A stretch of 64,000 nt of DNA from an uncultured Woeseiaceae bacterium (GTDB taxonomy: Bacteria > Pseudomonadota > Gammaproteobacteria > Steroidobacterales > Woeseiaceae). A program made the translations under genes and the position numbers. The stretch lies in contig CABXCS010000001.1 of NCBI GenBank assembly GCA_902510755.1, positions 1 to 64,000 of the forward strand, written 5' to 3'. The notes beneath the pieces were generated by a model. It had not been told where the DNA came from and did no database searches. It saw only the letters and a program-made list of their open reading frames with translations. Each line of letters opens with the position of its first letter. The stretch's first letter is position 1. Shown piece after piece: positions 2,816 through 37,398 of the stretch.

Positions 2816-4231
2816 TTACGCTTTTGCAACATTTACGATCTGAATATTCGTGTACTCATGGAGGCCTTCTTCAGCAAATTCTACCCCAATTCCAGAACAT
2901 TTGACTCCGCCAAATGGAACATTTGGAGCAATTCCACCATGACCATTTACCCATGCTGTACCACACTCCAATTGGCTAGCAACTTTTGCAGCTCGCTCCG
3001 TATCAGAGGACCAGACAGAACCGCCCAAACCCGTCTCAAGGGCATTAGCACTATTAATTGCGTCATCTAAATCTGAGTATTTGATTATCGGTAATAGTGG
3101 TCCAAACTGCTCTTCATCAACTATCCGCATTCCATCATTAACATCAGCAACCAGCGTATATGGCATAAAATATCCTGGCTCATTAGGTATATCTCCTCCA
3201 CAAAGAACGCGACCACCTTGTTCTTTCGCATCCTCGAATAAAGCTACAACTTTGTCATATTGCATTTTATTTTGAATTGGACCTTGTAAGTTATTCTCAT
3301 CAAGACCATCTCCCATTGGGATACCAGATGCAGCATTAGCTAACTCTTTACATAAATCATCATAAATCGAATCATGAACATATAATCTTTTCAAAGCAGC
3401 ACATGTTTGACCATTATTCAGAAATGCACCCTGAATTATATCCGGTGCAACTGCGGCTGGATCAACATCATCAAGAACAATACCCGCATCATTACCGCCA
3501 AGTTCGAGCGTCAATCTTTTCAAACTCGCAGAAGAACTGCTCATGACTTTTTTGCCAGTTGGAATAGATCCTGTAAAAATAATTTTTTGGATATTGGGAT
3601 GCTCAGTCATCCATTGACCTAAATTATCTTCACCTGTAACACAATTAAGCACACCAGCTGGTAAACAAGCGCTGATAATTTCTGCCATACGCAGCGAACT
3701 CAAGGGAGTATATGGTGAGGGTTTCATTACCACTGTATTGCCCGCCCTAATAGCCGGTACAATATGCCAAACCGCAATCATAAGCGGCCAATTCCAAGGG
3801 AGTATAGAACCAACAACACCTATTGGTTTTCTGGTTTGAACGATTTTTGCATTTTCATCATCTTGGATAATTTTTTCAGGAAGCTTTAATGTACTGGTAT
3901 AACCTGCCCATCCAGCTGCGCCACCAAGTTCAAATCTTGAGCCGGCCCCTTCAAGAGGTTTACCCTGTTCTTGAGTTAATAATTTAGCCAACTCTTCTGA
4001 GTGTGATGCAATTGCTGATGATATTTTTCCACAAACAGCAGCTCTGTCATCATCTGAAACTTTTGACCAAGTTATAAATGCATCAGAAGCTGCTTTCACG
4101 GCACTGTTCAAATGATCTTTTGTTGCGATTGGGCAATTCGCAACCACCTCTTCATTAGCTGGGTTTTTCACAGCAAATGTTTTCTCAGTGACTATTTTGT
4201 CACCATTTATAATTAGACCATAATCAGACAT
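2816..4231 (-). CDS. NAD(P)-dependent aldehyde dehydrogenase
   Basis: About 471 residues. It has the ALDH-superfamily hallmarks: a Rossmann segment around GSILPWNWPLMIA, the glutamate motif LELGGNDAG and the nucleophile Cys in NNGQTCAALKR (about residue 276). The ATG at 4231 is preceded by AGGAG at good spacing; a TTG six bases upstream is less likely. It is first in a three-gene operon (ALDH, Nramp-like, TPP enzyme) expressed from the conserved promoter at 4337-4375, leaving a leader of roughly 100 nt. That promoter is nearly identical to the one of the homoprotocatechuate genes, so a substrate such as 4-hydroxyphenylacetaldehyde or another aromatic aldehyde is reasonable (inference). The family assignment is firm; the substrate is not. 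Confidence 0.93.
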   Translation of the reverse strand: MSDYGLIINGDKIVTEKTFAVKNPANEEVVANCPIATKDHLNSAVKAASDAFITWSKVSDDDRAAVCGKISSAIASHSEELAKLLTQEQGKPLEGAGSRFELGGAAGWAGYTSTLKLPEKIIQDDENAKIVQTRKPIGVVGSILPWNWPLMIAVWHIVPAIRAGNTVVMKPSPYTPLSSLRMAEIISACLPAGVLNCVTGEDNLGQWMTEHPNIQKIIFTGSIPTGKKVMSSSSASLKRLTLELGGNDAGIVLDDVDPAAVAPDIIQGAFLNNGQTCAALKRLYVHDSIYDDLCKELANAASGIPMGDGLDENNLQGPIQNKMQYDKVVALFEDAKEQGGRVLCGGDIPNEPGYFMPYTLVADVNDGMRIVDEEQFGPLLPIIKYSDLDDAINSANALETGLGGSVWSSDTERAAKVASQLECGTAWVNGHGGIAPNVPFGGVKCSGIGVEFAEEGLHEYTNIQIVNVAKA

Positions 4232-4336
4232 TCTCAAACTCCTAATTTTTTATTATCATTTAAACTAACGACCCTTTATAAATTCAGGGTACGATTGTTA
4301 CATGCTATAACTAATAACACCATAAAGATGAATTCA

Positions 4337-4375
4337 TAAGAAAGTATACTTAACATGTTAAATTAACTCAAATCA
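4337..4375 (-). promoter_or_regulatory. Conserved promoter/operator, copy 1 (ALDH operon; faces sulfatase)
   Basis: Read on the minus strand, a -35-like TTGAGT (4371-4366), a 17-base spacer and a -10-like TATACT (4348-4343) drive the ALDH operon. The spacer contains the perfect palindrome TTAACATGTTAA, and the -10 sits inside the palindrome AAGTATACTT. The whole 39-bp block matches the block at 18468-18506 in 38 of 39 positions, inverted. The spacer palindrome fits a MarR-type repressor operator, with HpaR the obvious candidate (inference). No clear plus-strand promoter for the sulfatase gene was seen. Confidence 0.75.
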
Positions 4376-4429
4376 TGATATTTATACTAAATAAGTTTTA
4401 ATATATTATTTAAAAAGGGAATTAATTCA

Positions 4430-6097
4430 ATGCAACCTCTAAAAATCAAAATATTCAAATTAATTTTATTAATCCCTTTTTTGAGTTTTGGCTCGTATCT
4501 CTATGCGAATGAATCAGAACCACCTAATATAATATTAATTGTTGCAGATGATTTAGGGTATTCAGATCTGGGTGTATATGGTAGTGAAATAAAAACACCT
4601 AATTTAGATAATATGGCAAAAAATGGTATTCAATTAACAAATTACCATACTGGTCCAACATGCGGACCAACCCGAGCCATGCTAATGACTGGTGTCGATA
4701 ATCATCGTGCTGGCCTTGGGACAAATGCAGCTGCGTTAAGGCGACTTCCTGAGTTGAGGGGATTACCAGGTTATGAGGGGTTTTTGAATGACCGTGTAAT
4801 GCCGTTCTCAAAAATCTTAAATGATGCTGGTTATCATACATTTATGGCTGGGAAATGGGATCTGGGGAAAACAAAAGGAAAGCTTCCAACAGATCAGGGA
4901 TTTGATCGATATTTTGGAATAGCTGATGGCGGCGGCAGTCATTTTAGTGATGGTCGAGGAACATTTGCTGGTCAACAAATTGCAGCTTATTTTGAAGATG
5001 GTAAGAAAGTTACAAAACTAGATAAAGAATTCTACTCAACAAAAGATTATACCAATCGAATTCTTAATTATATAAAGAATAAGCCTCAGGACGACAAACC
5101 TTTCTTTGCCTACTTAGCATATACCGCGCCTCATTGGCCGCTTCAGGTACCTGATGCATGGATAGATAGATATAAAGGGACTTACGATAAAGGTTGGGAA
5201 GAAATTCGTAAGCAACGTTTTGAACAACAGAAATCATTTGGGTTGCTAAATCCAGATGTTCAGTTAACCCCTCTAAATCGTGCGGTAAAGAGCTGGGACT
5301 CACTACCAACTTTTCAAAAACAAACAGAAATCAAGCGAGCAGAACTGCATGCCGCAATGATCGAATTAATGGATCTTCATATAGGTCGACTTATAGAGTT
5401 TTTAACTGACAACATTGATAGAGAAACTATCGTAATTTTTGTTTCTGATAATGGGGCTGAAGGAAATGATATTGGTGCAGTTGGTGATAATAAATACTGG
5501 ATTCCTGCTACCTTTGATAACAGGATAGAGAATATGGGAAAAAGAGATTCTTATGTATGGTTGGGAGCTGGATGGGCTCACGCCATGGTCTCACCTTTTC
5601 GAAATTATAAATCTTATACAACCGAGGGTGGCATAAAAACTCCAGCTATATTTTATAGCACTAAAAATAGATTTAATAATGGAATCAAAAATTCAGTTAT
5701 GTCAGTTATGGATATTGCTCCAACCATCCTTGATATAGTAGATCTGAAGCACCCGCATGTATCTGAGAAAGAGTTGATCCCCATGACTGGTAAATCAGCA
5801 TTGAATTATCTTACTGATCAATCAGAAACAATACATGGAGATGAACCTATTGGTTGGGAATTATATGGGAATCGTGCATTGATAAAAAATAAATATAAAG
5901 CAGTCCTTATCTGGCCTCCAGAGGGCACTGGTGAATGGCAGCTCTATGATATATCTGAGGATCCTACTGAAAGTAATGATCTTTCAAAAAGCCACGCCAA
6001 CCTTCTTGAGAAAATGATCAATGACTGGAATGGTTACGCTGAAGTTAATGGTGTAGCTATAGTCAACGAGGATATTGGATATGGTCGATATAAATAA
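4430..6097 (+). CDS. Type I sulfatase (arylsulfatase), exported
   Basis: 555 residues with an N-terminal signal peptide ending near YANE, so periplasmic or secreted. NIILIVADDLGYSD carries the metal-binding aspartates. The sulfatase signature CGPTR around Cys78 has the C-x-P-T-R form seen in Pseudomonas arylsulfatase; this Cys must be converted to formylglycine by a maturation enzyme that is not in the window. FVSDNGAEG supplies the second metal site. The enzyme hydrolyses sulfate esters. The gene is divergent from the ALDH operon and shares its regulatory element with the hpa genes, so a phenolic sulfate substrate is plausible (inference). A carbohydrate sulfatase cannot be excluded, but the sequence looks closer to arylsulfatases. 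The start has AGGGA upstream. Confidence 0.92.
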   Translation: MQPLKIKIFKLILLIPFLSFGSYLYANESEPPNIILIVADDLGYSDLGVYGSEIKTPNLDNMAKNGIQLTNYHTGPTCGPTRAMLMTGVDNHRAGLGTNAAALRRLPELRGLPGYEGFLNDRVMPFSKILNDAGYHTFMAGKWDLGKTKGKLPTDQGFDRYFGIADGGGSHFSDGRGTFAGQQIAAYFEDGKKVTKLDKEFYSTKDYTNRILNYIKNKPQDDKPFFAYLAYTAPHWPLQVPDAWIDRYKGTYDKGWEEIRKQRFEQQKSFGLLNPDVQLTPLNRAVKSWDSLPTFQKQTEIKRAELHAAMIELMDLHIGRLIEFLTDNIDRETIVIFVSDNGAEGNDIGAVGDNKYWIPATFDNRIENMGKRDSYVWLGAGWAHAMVSPFRNYKSYTTEGGIKTPAIFYSTKNRFNNGIKNSVMSVMDIAPTILDIVDLKHPHVSEKELIPMTGKSALNYLTDQSETIHGDEPIGWELYGNRALIKNKYKAVLIWPPEGTGEWQLYDISEDPTESNDLSKSHANLLEKMINDWNGYAEVNGVAIVNEDIGYGRYK

Positions 6098-12230: not shown

Positions 12231-14636
12231 TTAAAAAGTATACACCTGAAGTGGATCATGTGATTGTCTCTGATTATGTAAAGCATTTAATATCATGTCA
12301 TTTGAAATAGGTGTTCGATTAAAATAGTGGCCTCCAAGCGCGTCAGATATAGCGGAAATTAAAGCTGCGGCAGCACAACCCATTACTGGTTCGCCCATCC
12401 CTCTGACGCCCACAGGATTTTGAGGGTCGGGGATATCCACAGCATCAGATCCAAGCTTTGATGGGACATCAAGATAAGTAGGAGGTTTTGATTCATATAA
12501 AAATATATTCGCAGGTAATCCATTCTGTGGGTCATAAACAAGTCTTTCCAGATGTGCAAGTCCAATACCCATAACAGCACCTCCTTTTACCTGACTTGCT
12601 AATCCCATCGGGTGAATTACTGTTCCACAATCAATAACTCCGTTATATTCTAGAATCTCAAACTTTCCTGTTTCTTTGTCTAATTCGATCATCATAAAGC
12701 CAGCAGCTAATGCTGGTGGTGTTCCATTGATAGGGTAATTATCTTTCGCAACTCCTATTAAACCTGAACCTTTAATTGCATCGACAGAGTTACGAGTCAT
12801 ATCATTTATATCGCTAGGAATTATATGGCCATCAAATTTCCCACCAATTTCAATCGCACGAACAGCAGCTTCAGCATAAGACATGCTTTCAGACTGACTC
12901 GCTTTTTTGTATACCCTTTGACCGTCAATTGCATAATCCTTAATTTCACCACCATATGCTAAAGCAGCAATTGAAAGTAATTTTTGTTTTAGATCCATTG
13001 CAGCAGCATAGTTGCTTCTTGACATCGTAAAAGATGTATTGCTTCCAAATTGCCCAATATTCCAAGGGAGATTTTTACGACTATCCCCTCTTTCAATAAT
13101 GCATTGCTCCCAATCACATTTTAATACCTCTGCCACTACCCGTGAAGTTGCAGCATATGAATATGTACCCAGATTTCCCACTCCAGAGTGAATGTGAATC
13201 TTACCATTCGGTAAAATCCTTACTAATCCATCGAATCCAGTAAAACCAGCAGAATGATAAGCTTGACCAATACCAAGACCTATTACTTTGGAACCTTTTT
13301 GATTTTTGCTTAAGTTATGTTTTGCTTTCCAGTTAAATCTTTTAGCACCTTTATCTAAAGCTTCTACCAAATAGGCACTAGTTACAGAACCTTGCTTACC
13401 GTCATAAAGAGAGTCATTATTTGGCGCATTAATTTTTCTGATTGTTAAACGATCTACATCTAGTTGTTTAGCAGCTTTATCTAATAATGGCTCTATAATC
13501 ATTGCAATCTGATTTTGTCCTGGACCTCTTTGAGCACCCCCAGGAGGGGTATTAGTTAGAACAGGGATGCCACGATATCTCATTGCCTTTGGTTGATAAC
13601 ATAATGATACGGCTCCTGCTGCACTGTTAAAATCAGGAAACCCATATGCTGGACCACACGATTGTATGATATATAGATCAACACCAGTGACTTTTCCTGA
13701 AGAATCAAAACCAAGTTTCACACGACCTTGAAAACCCCCTCTATTAGAACCTAAGAAATATTCCTCAGATCTCGTAATTCGCATCATAACTGGTCTTCCA
13801 ATCTTCTTTGCCATAAAAGCAGGTAATGCCATTATCGCGTAGGCAGTTCCCTTTGAACCAAAACCACCACCACAGTACTCTGCTATGTAGACCAATTCTT
13901 TTGGCTCAATCCCGATTAGCTTTGCTAATCCTGGAATAATGAAACTTTGACTCTGGGTTGAGCCATAAACATAACACTTTCCATTCTGCCAATATGACAT
14001 TGCCGTTCTGGGTTCCAAGCTATGATGTGCATTACTGCCAGTTACAAATGTTTCATCGTAAACTAGTGCTGCATCACTAAAAGCACCGCTCAAATCTCCG
14101 TAACTCCATTCTGTAGCAGCGCGACCTGTCAAGGGTAATTGACCGCTCTCAATCTCATCAAAATCCTCTGCTTTCCATTTCAATTGTTGTGCGGGTATAC
14201 CCCAATTAGCAACATTAGTATCCCCCCTGGCATTAGAACCATCTGGATGTAAGCTCTTAATAGGGTCAATTACAAAATCTAATAATTCTGTATCATATTT
14301 TATTTTTTCTAATGCATCTGCTGCTGATTTTTCGTCAACCGCAGCTATTGCAAGTATCGGATCACCAACATAATGTGGATTATTTGTCAGTATTGGTTGT
14401 CTTATACCCTCTGGTTGAGGAAGATCATCTGCTGTCAGGATACCCAAAACACCTGGCATTTTTAAAGCATCATAAATATTAATATTCGTAATCCTTGCAT
14501 GCGGAACAGGACTAAGAAGTAATTTTATATAGGCCATTCCATCAGCTCGAAAATCTTCCGCATACTTGGCTTTACCCGTAACTTTGGCTTTTATATCTGG
14601 CGGTATAAAATTTTTACCTAATAATTTATATGCCAT
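12231..14636 (-). CDS. Molybdenum hydroxylase (xanthine dehydrogenase family), molybdopterin-binding large subunit
   Basis: 801 residues. An a/b-hammerhead domain (VTGKAKYAEDF...) is followed by the Mo-MPT domains, with GGGFGSK around residue 257, QRGPGQNQ, and the catalytic GxGE motif in VRGMGEP near residue 745. Enzymes of this family hydroxylate aldehydes or N-heteroaromatic and aromatic rings using water. They normally need a [2Fe-2S] small subunit, and often a FAD subunit; neither is encoded nearby or anywhere in this window. The gene is in the hpa operon between the CMD-like protein and the AAHS transporter. The substrate is unknown; an aromatic aldehyde is one option. Confidence 0.9.
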   Translation of the reverse strand: MAYKLLGKNFIPPDIKAKVTGKAKYAEDFRADGMAYIKLLLSPVPHARITNINIYDALKMPGVLGILTADDLPQPEGIRQPILTNNPHYVGDPILAIAAVDEKSAADALEKIKYDTELLDFVIDPIKSLHPDGSNARGDTNVANWGIPAQQLKWKAEDFDEIESGQLPLTGRAATEWSYGDLSGAFSDAALVYDETFVTGSNAHHSLEPRTAMSYWQNGKCYVYGSTQSQSFIIPGLAKLIGIEPKELVYIAEYCGGGFGSKGTAYAIMALPAFMAKKIGRPVMMRITRSEEYFLGSNRGGFQGRVKLGFDSSGKVTGVDLYIIQSCGPAYGFPDFNSAAGAVSLCYQPKAMRYRGIPVLTNTPPGGAQRGPGQNQIAMIIEPLLDKAAKQLDVDRLTIRKINAPNNDSLYDGKQGSVTSAYLVEALDKGAKRFNWKAKHNLSKNQKGSKVIGLGIGQAYHSAGFTGFDGLVRILPNGKIHIHSGVGNLGTYSYAATSRVVAEVLKCDWEQCIIERGDSRKNLPWNIGQFGSNTSFTMSRSNYAAAMDLKQKLLSIAALAYGGEIKDYAIDGQRVYKKASQSESMSYAEAAVRAIEIGGKFDGHIIPSDINDMTRNSVDAIKGSGLIGVAKDNYPINGTPPALAAGFMMIELDKETGKFEILEYNGVIDCGTVIHPMGLASQVKGGAVMGIGLAHLERLVYDPQNGLPANIFLYESKPPTYLDVPSKLGSDAVDIPDPQNPVGVRGMGEPVMGCAAAALISAISDALGGHYFNRTPISNDMILNALHNQRQSHDPLQVYTF

Positions 14637-18453: not shown

Positions 18454-18467
18454 CGCTATCCTTATCT

Positions 18468-18520
18468 TGATTTGAATTAATTTAACATGTTAAGTATACT
18501 TTCTTAAAATTTAACGTCAA
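18468..18520. promoter_or_regulatory. Divergent overlapping promoters with operator, conserved element copy 2 (hpaF / aldolase operons)
   Basis: Plus-strand promoter: TTGAAT (18472-18477), 17-base spacer, TATACT (18495-18500), driving the aldolase-FAH-hpaR operon. Minus-strand promoter: TTGACG (18520-18515), 16-base spacer, TATACT (18498-18493), driving hpaF. Both -10 boxes lie in the same palindrome AAGTATACTT. The perfect palindrome TTAACATGTTAA (18482-18493) lies in the spacer of one promoter and at the expected start point of the other, so one bound repressor would block both. HpaR, encoded in the plus-strand operon, is the obvious candidate (inference). Bases 18468-18506 match 4337-4375 inverted, 38 of 39. 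Confidence 0.78.
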
Positions 18521-20325: not shown

Positions 20326-20784
20326 ATGAAAAAGAATCCGTCGACTAAATTATCCATAAGAAGCTTTGATCAATCTTTGCCTATGCAACTTTTGAAGGCC
20401 CGTGAAGCTGCGATGTCTAGATTCCGTCCAATGTTGAGGGATCATGGCCTAACCGAGCAACGATGGCGAGTGATTCGTGCCATTCATGAGCATAACAAAA
20501 TTGATGCTAGTGAGTTGGCTGCGAAGAGCTTTCTATTATCTCCAAGCCTAACTAGAATTTTAAAATATCTTGAAGCTGAGAATATCATAATAAGAACAGG
20601 TGACACTAATGATCTTCGACGTTCAGTATTTTGTCTCTCAAAAAAAGGCAAGAAAATTATAATGGATATAACCCCTGAAACTGAAAATTTATATCAAGAG
20701 ATTGAATCTCTATTTGGTGCTGATAAATTTAAAGAAATTATTACCTTGCTGATAGAATTTTCTACCAAAATAAATAAGAATTAA
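20326..20784 (+). CDS. hpaR: HpaR, MarR-family regulator of homoprotocatechuate degradation
   Basis: 152 residues with a winged-helix MarR fold. The N-terminal SLPMQLLKAREAAMSRFRP and HGLTEQRWRVIR segments are characteristic of HpaR, which represses hpa meta-cleavage genes and is released by the hydroxyphenylacetate compounds. It is third in the operon of the aldolase and FAH genes, 5 bases after the FAH stop, so it would be autoregulated through the element at 18468-18520 (inference). It converges with hpaB, with one base between the two stops. The assignment is strong from sequence and context. Confidence 0.92.
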   Translation: MKKNPSTKLSIRSFDQSLPMQLLKAREAAMSRFRPMLRDHGLTEQRWRVIRAIHEHNKIDASELAAKSFLLSPSLTRILKYLEAENIIIRTGDTNDLRRSVFCLSKKGKKIIMDITPETENLYQEIESLFGADKFKEIITLLIEFSTKINKN

Positions 20785-22267: not shown

Positions 22268-22711
22268 TTATTTAATTTCCTTTTGTTCATGAATTGAAGA
22301 TAATTTACTAAGCAAAGTGAGCGTCTCATTGAGATCTTTAGTTCCCATCGATGATTCTATTTCATCATATACAGCCTCAACTTTTGGTATGATTTGTGAC
22401 TCTAATACTTCACCTTTATTAGTTAAACTTATAATAATTATGCGTCGATCAATATCTGAGATCGTTCTCACTACTAAATCATTTTCAGCCATTCGATCCA
22501 CAATACCAACTAGACTTGGAGGAGAAATTAACGTTAAAAATGATAATTCTGTAAATGAAACTTTTTTATATTGCCATAAAATTCTCACTACTCTAGCTTG
22601 TTGTTCTGTAATGCCAAACTGTTTAAAAATGGTACGAAATTTGGGCATTATATGATCTAATGCTCTGATGAGCATCATCGGTAAAGAAGTTTGGAACTCT
22701 TCTATTGCCAT
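22268..22711 (-). CDS. MarR-family transcriptional regulator (second, HpaR-like)
   Basis: 147 residues, MarR winged-helix fold. It shares LPMMLIRALDHIMPKFR...FGITEQQARVVRILW with HpaR but is clearly diverged. The wing region NDLVVRTISDIDRRIIIISLT is typical. Its stop abuts the hpaB start, forming a two-gene operon. The start lies next to a perfect 35-bp palindrome (22723-22757) placed between two divergent promoters, so autoregulation together with hpaB and the MTHFR operon is likely (inference). The ligand is unknown; an aromatic carboxylate is probable. Confidence 0.9.
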   Translation of the reverse strand: MAIEEFQTSLPMMLIRALDHIMPKFRTIFKQFGITEQQARVVRILWQYKKVSFTELSFLTLISPPSLVGIVDRMAENDLVVRTISDIDRRIIIISLTNKGEVLESQIIPKVEAVYDEIESSMGTKDLNETLTLLSKLSSIHEQKEIK

Positions 22712-22716
22712 AAATA

Positions 22717-22773
22717 TTGACTTTAGTTAATATATTAATTATTAATATATTAACTAATATAGTAGCTTGTCAA
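22717..22773. promoter_or_regulatory. Divergent promoters around a perfect 35-bp palindrome (marR-hpaB / MTHFR operons)
   Basis: Positions 22723-22739 and 22741-22757 are exact 17-bp inverted repeats around one base. Each arm contains the 12-bp self-palindrome TTAATATATTAA, so two half-operators lie 15 bp apart. On the plus side TTGACT (22717-22722) is followed after 17 bases by TATTAA. On the minus side TTGACA (22773-22768) is followed after 18 bases by TATATT. Both -10 boxes are inside the palindrome. This is the expected layout for a MarR dimer-binding site that shuts off both operons. Confidence 0.78.
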
Positions 22774-35738: not shown

Positions 35739-36233
35739 TTAGAGTTTCTTGCAATCTTCAAAAGGTATTTCTTCGACGAGTTTTACAAATTCAGAATCAA
35801 GAATAAGTCTATTATCGTTCCAAACTCTATCTCTTATCATACAATCAAAAGAATTATCATTTTTTTTAATACTATTTATAGAATTTAATCTTCCTTGCCA
35901 AGCATCATCTGTCATAAGTCCAAGTCTGTATCTCAAATAGTCTGCTTCATATATATTCCACATCGCATTAAATGAATTATGAACATAAATGTCATAATCA
36001 CTATAGTGATCTTGATCGTACTGATGGGCTAATGAACGGCTCGTTGCTGAATTATAAACACTAACCCAAACTTGGGCTCTTGCTAGATGCTGATCAGACA
36101 TAGCAATTTTATGAGATTGTCTTAATTCAAGACCTACAAAGATTAACGATGAGATTATACCAATCACACCAATAATCTGAAAAAAATCACCATACTTAGA
36201 CAACGTGTTCATTGAGAAGATACTTTTATTCAT
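35739..36233 (-). CDS. Single-TM paralogue family, member 2
   Basis: About 164 residues from the ATG at 36233. The N-terminal segment MNKSIFSMNTLSKYGDFFQI and helix IGVIGIISSLIFVGLELRQS are nearly the same as in the two upstream paralogues. The core NIYEADYLRYRLGLMTDDAW matches the family motif, and the C-terminus has two cysteines. The DNA around its start, 36212-36269, repeats at 37341-37398 with one difference, which points to tandem duplication. Function unknown. Confidence 0.75.
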   Translation of the reverse strand: MNKSIFSMNTLSKYGDFFQIIGVIGIISSLIFVGLELRQSHKIAMSDQHLARAQVWVSVYNSATSRSLAHQYDQDHYSDYDIYVHNSFNAMWNIYEADYLRYRLGLMTDDAWQGRLNSINSIKKNDNSFDCMIRDRVWNDNRLILDSEFVKLVEEIPFEDCKKL

Positions 36234-36269
36234 AAACAAAGCCTACACAACTAACAAACTCTTGTGAAG
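36212..36269 (-). repeat. 58-bp duplicated start region, copy 1
   Basis: Covers the first codons and the upstream region of the gene at 35739-36233. It matches 37341-37398 in 57 of 58 positions, differing at one base in the coding part. The upstream non-coding half is identical, so the promoter or ribosome-binding region is preserved along with the gene. Confidence 0.9.
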
Positions 36270-36327
36270 ACTAGGTGTTGGTTTAGCTAAATATGGCTGC
36301 TAGAAGGCTTTTAGGAAATGCTTATGT

Positions 36328-36843
36328 CTATTCAAATCTTTTTATTAAACCATCTGAATTATTTTCATCATTGCACAGATCGGGAAGACTTCTAACATAA
36401 TCTTCAAATGGCTCTATAAATATCTGTGCTTCAAAGACATAACGCAGATGACAATGATTCCATTGTAATTCAGTATATTGTTTTTCTTTATCCCAAATAA
36501 CTTGATCCATCATTCCTTGTTTATATTGATAGAAGTTATTCTCATTTACAGTCCAATAATAAACTTGGCGTTGTTCTCTGTTGTAACGCTGAATTTCTGA
36601 TTGATTCTCCCACGCTATATTTTCAACTCCAATTTCTTCAGGGCTAAACTCATAAGTAGATAATATTTGATTTGTTCTAAGTATTGTCCTTGATTGCTGT
36701 TGACCTGCTATTGCTATTTTTTGTGTTTGTCTTAATTCTAAGCCCACAAATATCAGAGAAGCAATCAAACCAATCACACCAACTATCTGAAATAGTTCAC
36801 TGTATTTGGAAAGACTGTTAATCGAGAAGATACTTTTATTCAT
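36328..36843 (-). CDS. Single-TM paralogue family, member 3
   Basis: 171 residues. N-terminus MNKSIFSINSLSKYSELFQI and helix VGVIGLIASLIFVGLELRQT are almost identical to member 4, but the soluble domain differs strongly (YYWTVNENNFYQYKQGMMDQ is the counterpart of the family motif). It begins only 3 bases after the stop of member 4, so the pair is one transcription unit. The conserved membrane part and variable soluble part suggest the soluble domain is the diversified, functional portion. Function unknown. Confidence 0.75.
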   Translation of the reverse strand: MNKSIFSINSLSKYSELFQIVGVIGLIASLIFVGLELRQTQKIAIAGQQQSRTILRTNQILSTYEFSPEEIGVENIAWENQSEIQRYNREQRQVYYWTVNENNFYQYKQGMMDQVIWDKEKQYTELQWNHCHLRYVFEAQIFIEPFEDYVRSLPDLCNDENNSDGLIKRFE

Positions 36844-36846
36844 TTC

Positions 36847-37362
36847 CTAATTTTCTTCACTCATTAATGATTCACATGTGTTGGGCAGGTTTTCGACCAA
36901 CTTTCTAAGATCCGGATGTATTCCAGCCTTTCTTCGTTCCCATATCCTTTTTGCGATTATACATTCTTCTCTATTACGCCCATTCAAATTTCGTATCATT
37001 CCATTATTTAGTTTTATAAGAAATTGAGTTTCATCTCTATACCCTTTCCGATATAACTGGTAATCGAGATCATAGATATTCCAAAAACTATTTTTTAGAG
37101 AAACAACAAATTCTCTATTTTCCTTATTTACACCATTTTCTAACCAATCAATAAAATCTATTCCATTCTCAGCCCATCTCTGTTGTATTCCAACTACAAG
37201 ATGAACTCTCTCTTGTTGTTGATCAATCAAGGCTATTTCTTGTGATTGTCTCAACTCTAAACCCACGAAGATTAATGAAGCAATCAGACCAATCACACCA
37301 ACTATCTGAAACAATTCACTGTACTTGGAAAGACTGTTAATTGAGAAGATGCTTTTATTCAT
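36847..37362 (-). CDS. Single-TM paralogue family, member 4
   Basis: About 171 residues from the ATG at 37362. Same membrane segment and QSQEIALIDQQQER linker as the other members. The core reads SFWNIYDLDYQLYRKGYRDE. The C-terminal part contains two cysteines (EECIIAKRIW, NTCES), like member 2. It is first of a two-gene unit with member 3. Function unknown. Confidence 0.75.
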   Translation of the reverse strand: MNKSIFSINSLSKYSELFQIVGVIGLIASLIFVGLELRQSQEIALIDQQQERVHLVVGIQQRWAENGIDFIDWLENGVNKENREFVVSLKNSFWNIYDLDYQLYRKGYRDETQFLIKLNNGMIRNLNGRNREECIIAKRIWERRKAGIHPDLRKLVENLPNTCESLMSEEN

Positions 37363-37398
37363 AAACAAAGCCTACACAACTAACAAACTCTTGTGAAG
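37341..37398 (-). repeat. 58-bp duplicated start region, copy 2
   Basis: Partner of 36212-36269 (57 of 58 identical), at the start of paralogue member 4. Similarity ends abruptly just upstream of base 37398. Confidence 0.9.

Follow-up and report, generated by a model that had tools for sequence, protein, structure and literature searches.

The window analysed here, a stretch of 64,000 nucleotides from an uncultured Woeseiaceae bacterium, contains two near-identical blocks of non-coding DNA in inverted orientation: one lies at the promoter of the hpa genes for 4-hydroxyphenylacetate (4-HPA) degradation, the other between the genes of an aldehyde dehydrogenase (ALDH) and a sulfatase. This raises the question of how the second block arose, and whether it places the genes at the left end of the window under the control of the hpa repressor.

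The repeated block and the hpaF/hpaI promoter

An exact comparison of positions 4337-4375 of the plus strand with the reverse complement of 18468-18506 leaves a single difference (38/39 identical), just as the first-pass annotation had claimed. A repeat finder stretches the inverted arms to 4337-4380 and 18463-18506 (44 nucleotides, 42 identical, 95%) and beyond both arms the identity drops to background; the chance expectation for such inverted pairs per 64 kb is 9e-12 with the composition of the window and 4e-9 with 75% AT. The centre of both blocks is a perfect 12-bp palindrome, TTAACATGTTAA (4350-4361 and 18482-18493). The promoter elements that had been read into the block are also there: the minus strand has, from 4371 to 4343, a -35 hexamer (TTGAGT, 4366-4371), a 17-nucleotide spacer with TTAACATGTTAA inside and a -10 hexamer (TATACT, 4343-4348) that is part of a further palindrome, AGTATACT, and both hexamers face the ALDH gene. 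Transcription from this promoter is predicted to start near 4336. The sole mismatch within the 39 bp is position 4367, base 5 of the -35, which is off-consensus in both copies. An assembly artefact was considered and ruled out, because G060 (AG-319-E21), which was assembled independently from the same species, has the block unchanged in the corresponding position.

The block at 18 kb is part of a predicted divergent promoter that covers both strands (18463-18520) and serves hpaF, a 5-carboxymethyl-2-hydroxymuconate isomerase (PF02962; 18055-18453, minus strand), and an hpaI-like aldolase of the DapA family (PF00701; 18555-19448, plus strand), for which TIGR02313 is the best match but below its cut-off. 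Downstream of the aldolase are hpaG-like and hpaR genes, and the same cluster encodes hpaE (TIGR02299, 792 bits) and hpaB (TIGR02309, 510 bits), both above cut-off. On the plus strand, the promoter consists of TTGAAT (18472-18477), a 17-nucleotide spacer with the palindrome and TATACT (18495-18500); on the minus strand, TTGACG (CGTCAA on the plus strand, 18515-18520) is followed after 16 nucleotides by TATACT. The two -10 hexamers overlap within AGTATACT, so that the site (18472-18520) has a shared -10 with a -35 on either side: this is the layout of bidirectional promoters with a symmetric -10 described by Warman et al. (PMC12825309), with the -35 hexamers at 17 and 16 nucleotides. The promoter is present as a single copy across the Woeseiaceae: 17 Woeseiaceae genomes align gap-free over 49 bp, the position of the palindrome is conserved among relatives, and there is no variation in the -35 TTGAA, in TTAACATGTTAA, in GTATA or in the outer CAA. 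Judged by this alignment, the 18-kb copy is the ancestral one and the hpa promoter would be the source in the direction of copying, since the hpa site is conserved in relatives.

Two other features of the window were seen. A large molybdenum subunit of the xanthine dehydrogenase type is encoded inside the hpa cluster (12231-14636); among the congener loci read across that position, it was found in G007 alone. Further to the right, there are three tandem paralogous small genes (35739-37368) of about 170 amino acids with a conserved N-terminal membrane segment and 64-80% DNA identity over 196 nucleotides.

The copy at 4.3 kb (4337-4380, minus strand) retains the hpaI-facing half of the promoter, with -35, palindrome and -10, and directs it at a predicted operon of three closely spaced or overlapping genes on the minus strand: aldehyde dehydrogenase ALDH1 (2816-4231), an Nramp-like transporter (1576-2811) and a TPP-dependent decarboxylase or acetolactate-synthase-like enzyme of the PRK08266 subfamily (2-1648), the latter truncated by the end of the contig. 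In G060, the TPP enzyme is complete, with an open frame of 578 amino acids. The ATG at 4231 is the more likely start of the ALDH than the TTG at 4237, the mechanical start of the open reading frame two codons earlier, because congener ALDHs begin with MSDY. Outward from the copy, there is no TTGACG-like hexamer at a distance of 16 nucleotides, with TAAAGA in that position, and, unlike the promoters of Warman et al. and the ancestral hpa promoter, the ALDH copy is therefore predicted to be one-directional. The divergent sulfatase (4430-6097, plus strand) is probably not driven by the block, because the outward -35 (TTGACG) falls outside the copied part; it would have a promoter of its own, for which TTTATA-17-TATTAT at 4381-4409 is a candidate. 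Of the left-end genes that had been assigned to the hpa regulon in the first-pass annotation, ALDH, Nramp-like transporter and TPP enzyme thus keep their place as a prediction by sequence, while that of the sulfatase is doubtful.

Origin of the block at the ALDH/sulfatase gene pair

ALDH1 and the divergent sulfatase are adjacent in all seven congeners and the gene pair is therefore older than the block. In none of the seven (0/7) is TTAACATGTTAA present between the two genes, and no TTAA-N4-TTAA site was found before the ALDH in the longer congener stretches that were read or in other genera. The copy is confined to one marine Woeseiaceae species, represented by two independent assemblies (the genome studied here, G000, and G060). 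The intergenic region measures 198 bp with the block versus 158-165 bp in the seven congeners; the difference of 33-40 bp is near the size of the block, and the congener intergenic regions are too diverged for an exact placement of the insertion.

Searches for further copies in the genome of origin covered 1.22 Mb, which is 52% complete. There, TTAACATGTTAA occurs exactly twice, a 23-mer around the palindrome has two occurrences with 3 mismatches allowed, and a profile of the hpa promoter finds two strong sites (E-values 3.7e-13 and 2.4e-8), with the next at 0.056; since the genome is 52% complete, further sites may exist. When the profile was run on 81 genomes of the family, no other genome had a second strong site; each had at most one, and in G060 this was the ALDH copy. 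The exact 19-mer TTAACATGTTAAGTATACT was found in 26 stretches among 84,980 species genomes, a set that may leave out records close to our own genome: 25 of these adjoin hpa genes and one precedes the ALDH of the same species. The motif search proposed in the first-pass annotation thus finds the motif confined to the ALDH and hpa promoters within these 1.22 Mb. Among the species genomes, the 19-mer is found solely at hpa and ALDH genes; the palindrome also occurs outside hpa in two genomes of the family.

In one of these, G015, a TonB-type receptor gene and an MFS gene are separated by a region with two TTAACATGTTAA sites 22 bp apart (L115, positions 4233 and 4255), and a Rieske oxygenase and a sulfatase are close by; in the other, G011, a single site (L116, position 1727) is flanked by the same two kinds of gene. 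These sites perhaps belong to another HpaR-like regulon. TTAACATGTTAA sites without homologues of genes of the 64-kb window are present in G009 (C5) and in G041.

The first-pass annotation had given two possible reasons for the near-identity: the DNA was copied recently, or selection strongly favours one and the same regulator. Convergent selection that assembled the second site from scratch would favour the operator and the promoter hexamers, and it is these positions that the family alignment shows to be conserved. Yet 18 of the 19 positions that are unconserved in the hpa promoters of relatives are also identical between the two blocks (P about 1e-8), and the intergenic region is longer than that of the congeners by about one block; we consider a convergent origin very improbable. 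A mobile or dispersed repeat (MITE or REP-like) that by chance landed at two promoters would equally leave a pair of near-identical inverted copies in one 64-kb window, but it is hardly credible: there is no third site in the 1.22 Mb (52% complete), relatives have a single copy and have it at the hpa promoter, and neither terminal repeats nor target duplications were seen. Because the identity extends over 18 of 19 unconstrained positions, the data argue for recent copying rather than convergence, and species restriction, gain in intergenic length, flank identity and the profile searches together support that about 40-44 bp of the hpa promoter were recently copied into the ALDH/sulfatase intergenic region. 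Like the promoter or intergenic switching known from bacteria, such an event adds a functional promoter unit beside an unchanged gene pair; unlike it, where whole intergenic regions move between strains, the donor here would lie only 14 kb from the copy within one genome, and the copied piece would measure no more than about 40 bp.

HpaR repressors and predicted operators

HpaR footprints of Yersinia are 15-bp sites with the pattern TTAA-N4-TTAA, described as similar to those of E. coli W, and one of them (site 2) covers the -10 (PMC7180172); Acinetobacter HpaR is released by pathway intermediates (PMC12718150). The palindrome TTAACATGTTAA has this pattern (TTAA-CATG-TTAA) in both blocks, at 4350 and at 18482, and is a predicted HpaR operator in each. 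At the hpa promoter (18482-18493), it overlaps the core promoter of the hpa meta-cleavage genes: it falls within the 17-nucleotide spacer that separates TTGAAT from TATACT in front of hpaI, and it also precedes hpaF. A cognate HpaR gene is linked (20326-20784, plus strand). The locus thus resembles the HpaR systems of E. coli W, Yersinia pseudotuberculosis and Acinetobacter baumannii both in the palindromic TTAA-N4-TTAA that overlaps core promoter elements and in having hpa meta-cleavage genes with a TIGR02337 HpaR inside the cluster. It differs from Yersinia, where site 2 is over the -10, in that the operator is in the -35/-10 spacer of the divergent hpaF/hpaI promoter, and it differs from the known HpaR systems in that this species has a second operator copy directed at an operon that is not among the classical hpa genes.

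The cluster encodes two HpaR-like proteins. HpaR1 (20326-20784), a repressor of the MarR family and the predicted regulator of both blocks, scores 155.1 bits with TIGR02337 (cut-off 121.2), matches the structure of Acinetobacter HpaR (7el2, E-value 5e-25) and is encoded in the operon behind the TTAACATGTTAA promoter. HpaR2 (22268-22711, minus strand) is a second HpaR-like MarR protein, below the cut-off with 109.3 bits. Beside its gene, at the divergent hpaR2-hpaB/metF-like promoter, is a predicted tandem operator, TTAATATATTAA-N3-TTAATATATTAA (22727-22753); each of the seven congeners (7/7) has a single such tandem site in its genome, at the hpa locus, and five more genomes of the family have it with one mismatch. 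The recognition helices, assigned by their position in the MarR fold rather than from a computed structure, also differ: SPSLTRIL in HpaR1 and PSLVGIV in HpaR2. Two HpaR paralogues adjoin two classes of operators and could be co-diverged pairs of repressor and operator. The simplest assignment would pair HpaR1 with TTAACATGTTAA and HpaR2 with the tandem site, because HpaR2 is below cut-off and beside a tandem site of its own and because the recognition helices differ.

The ALDH-Nramp-TPP genes and the hpa regulon

In other genera of the Woeseiaceae, the genes for ALDH, Nramp-like transporter and TPP enzyme, or the latter two, stay together and in some of these genomes they are on the hpa contig; in most congeners, the genes are linked to hpa. 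Across 61 genomes, 16 have both the TPP gene and the hpa promoter, 7 have the hpa promoter only, 4 have the TPP gene only and 34 have neither, an association (Fisher p 3e-6 overall and 9e-4 outside the genus, with phylogeny uncontrolled) that is not seen within genus g12. The data suggest that the ALDH-Nramp-TPP genes serve arylacetate catabolism. Neither ALDH nor TPP enzyme reaches the cut-off of a specific NCBIfam equivalog, and PRK08266 is a family without assigned function. The PDB relatives of the TPP enzyme comprise acetolactate synthases, glyoxylate carboligase and acyl-CoA lyases, from which no substrate of the enzyme follows. A literature search for an operon of 4-hydroxyphenylpyruvate decarboxylase and ALDH yielded nothing useful. 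Because the PRK08266 family has no assigned function and the ALDH meets no family cut-off, it is no more than a hypothesis that TPP enzyme and ALDH turn 4-hydroxyphenylpyruvate into 4-HPA.

Two readings agree with a copied block and yet disagree with a new HpaR1 target. The copy could be a short templated insertion of recent date, close to neutral, that leaves the regulation of the ALDH-Nramp-TPP genes unaltered in the long run, as it is young and species-specific, and the two strains that have it are near-identical, too close for a signal of selection in the sequence. We regard this as unlikely: -35, operator and -10 are all intact, with a single substitution in 39 bp that hit an off-consensus base of the -35, and the copied interval corresponds to a functional promoter unit oriented towards the operon. 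It is also conceivable that the operator is bound at both blocks by a different MarR protein, either HpaR2 (22268), which is HpaR-like too (109 bits) and encoded in the same cluster, or one from outside the cluster. We give this little credence, as the TTAACATGTTAA promoter drives the operon to which the HpaR1 gene itself belongs, while HpaR2 has a distinct recognition helix and adjoins its own tandem TTAATATATTAA site, conserved in 7/7 congeners.

The explanation that we favour is that the HpaR regulon was recently extended to the ALDH-Nramp-TPP genes by a copied, repressible hpa promoter; we consider this likely for the extension as a whole, with the regulation deduced from sequence, and the copying probably placed the ALDH operon under the hpa repressor. 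A dimer of HpaR1 would bind TTAACATGTTAA and cover the -35/-10 spacer, shutting out RNA polymerase; a build-up of 4-hydroxyphenylacetate or 3,4-dihydroxyphenylacetate would then take HpaR1 off both sites, and ALDH, Nramp-like transporter and TPP enzyme would be produced alongside the hpa enzymes. More speculatively, TPP enzyme and ALDH may act as a pair of 2-oxo-acid decarboxylase and aldehyde dehydrogenase that feeds an arylacetate, for example 4-HPA, into the pathway. The fullest version of this scenario, in which a single within-genome copying of about 40 bp moved a complete, one-directional and ligand-responsive promoter and thereby created an HpaR-regulated operon that produces 4-HPA (from 2-oxo acid via aldehyde to arylacetate), is tentative and in our view rather doubtful.

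Regulatory rewiring of this kind is already known; the locus adds a clean and well-resolved natural case of regulon growth. The same gene pair lacks an operator in seven congeners and has a copied, repressible promoter of 40 bp in one species, a natural pair of before and after; how a regulon gains a gene can therefore be tested with two short DNA fragments.
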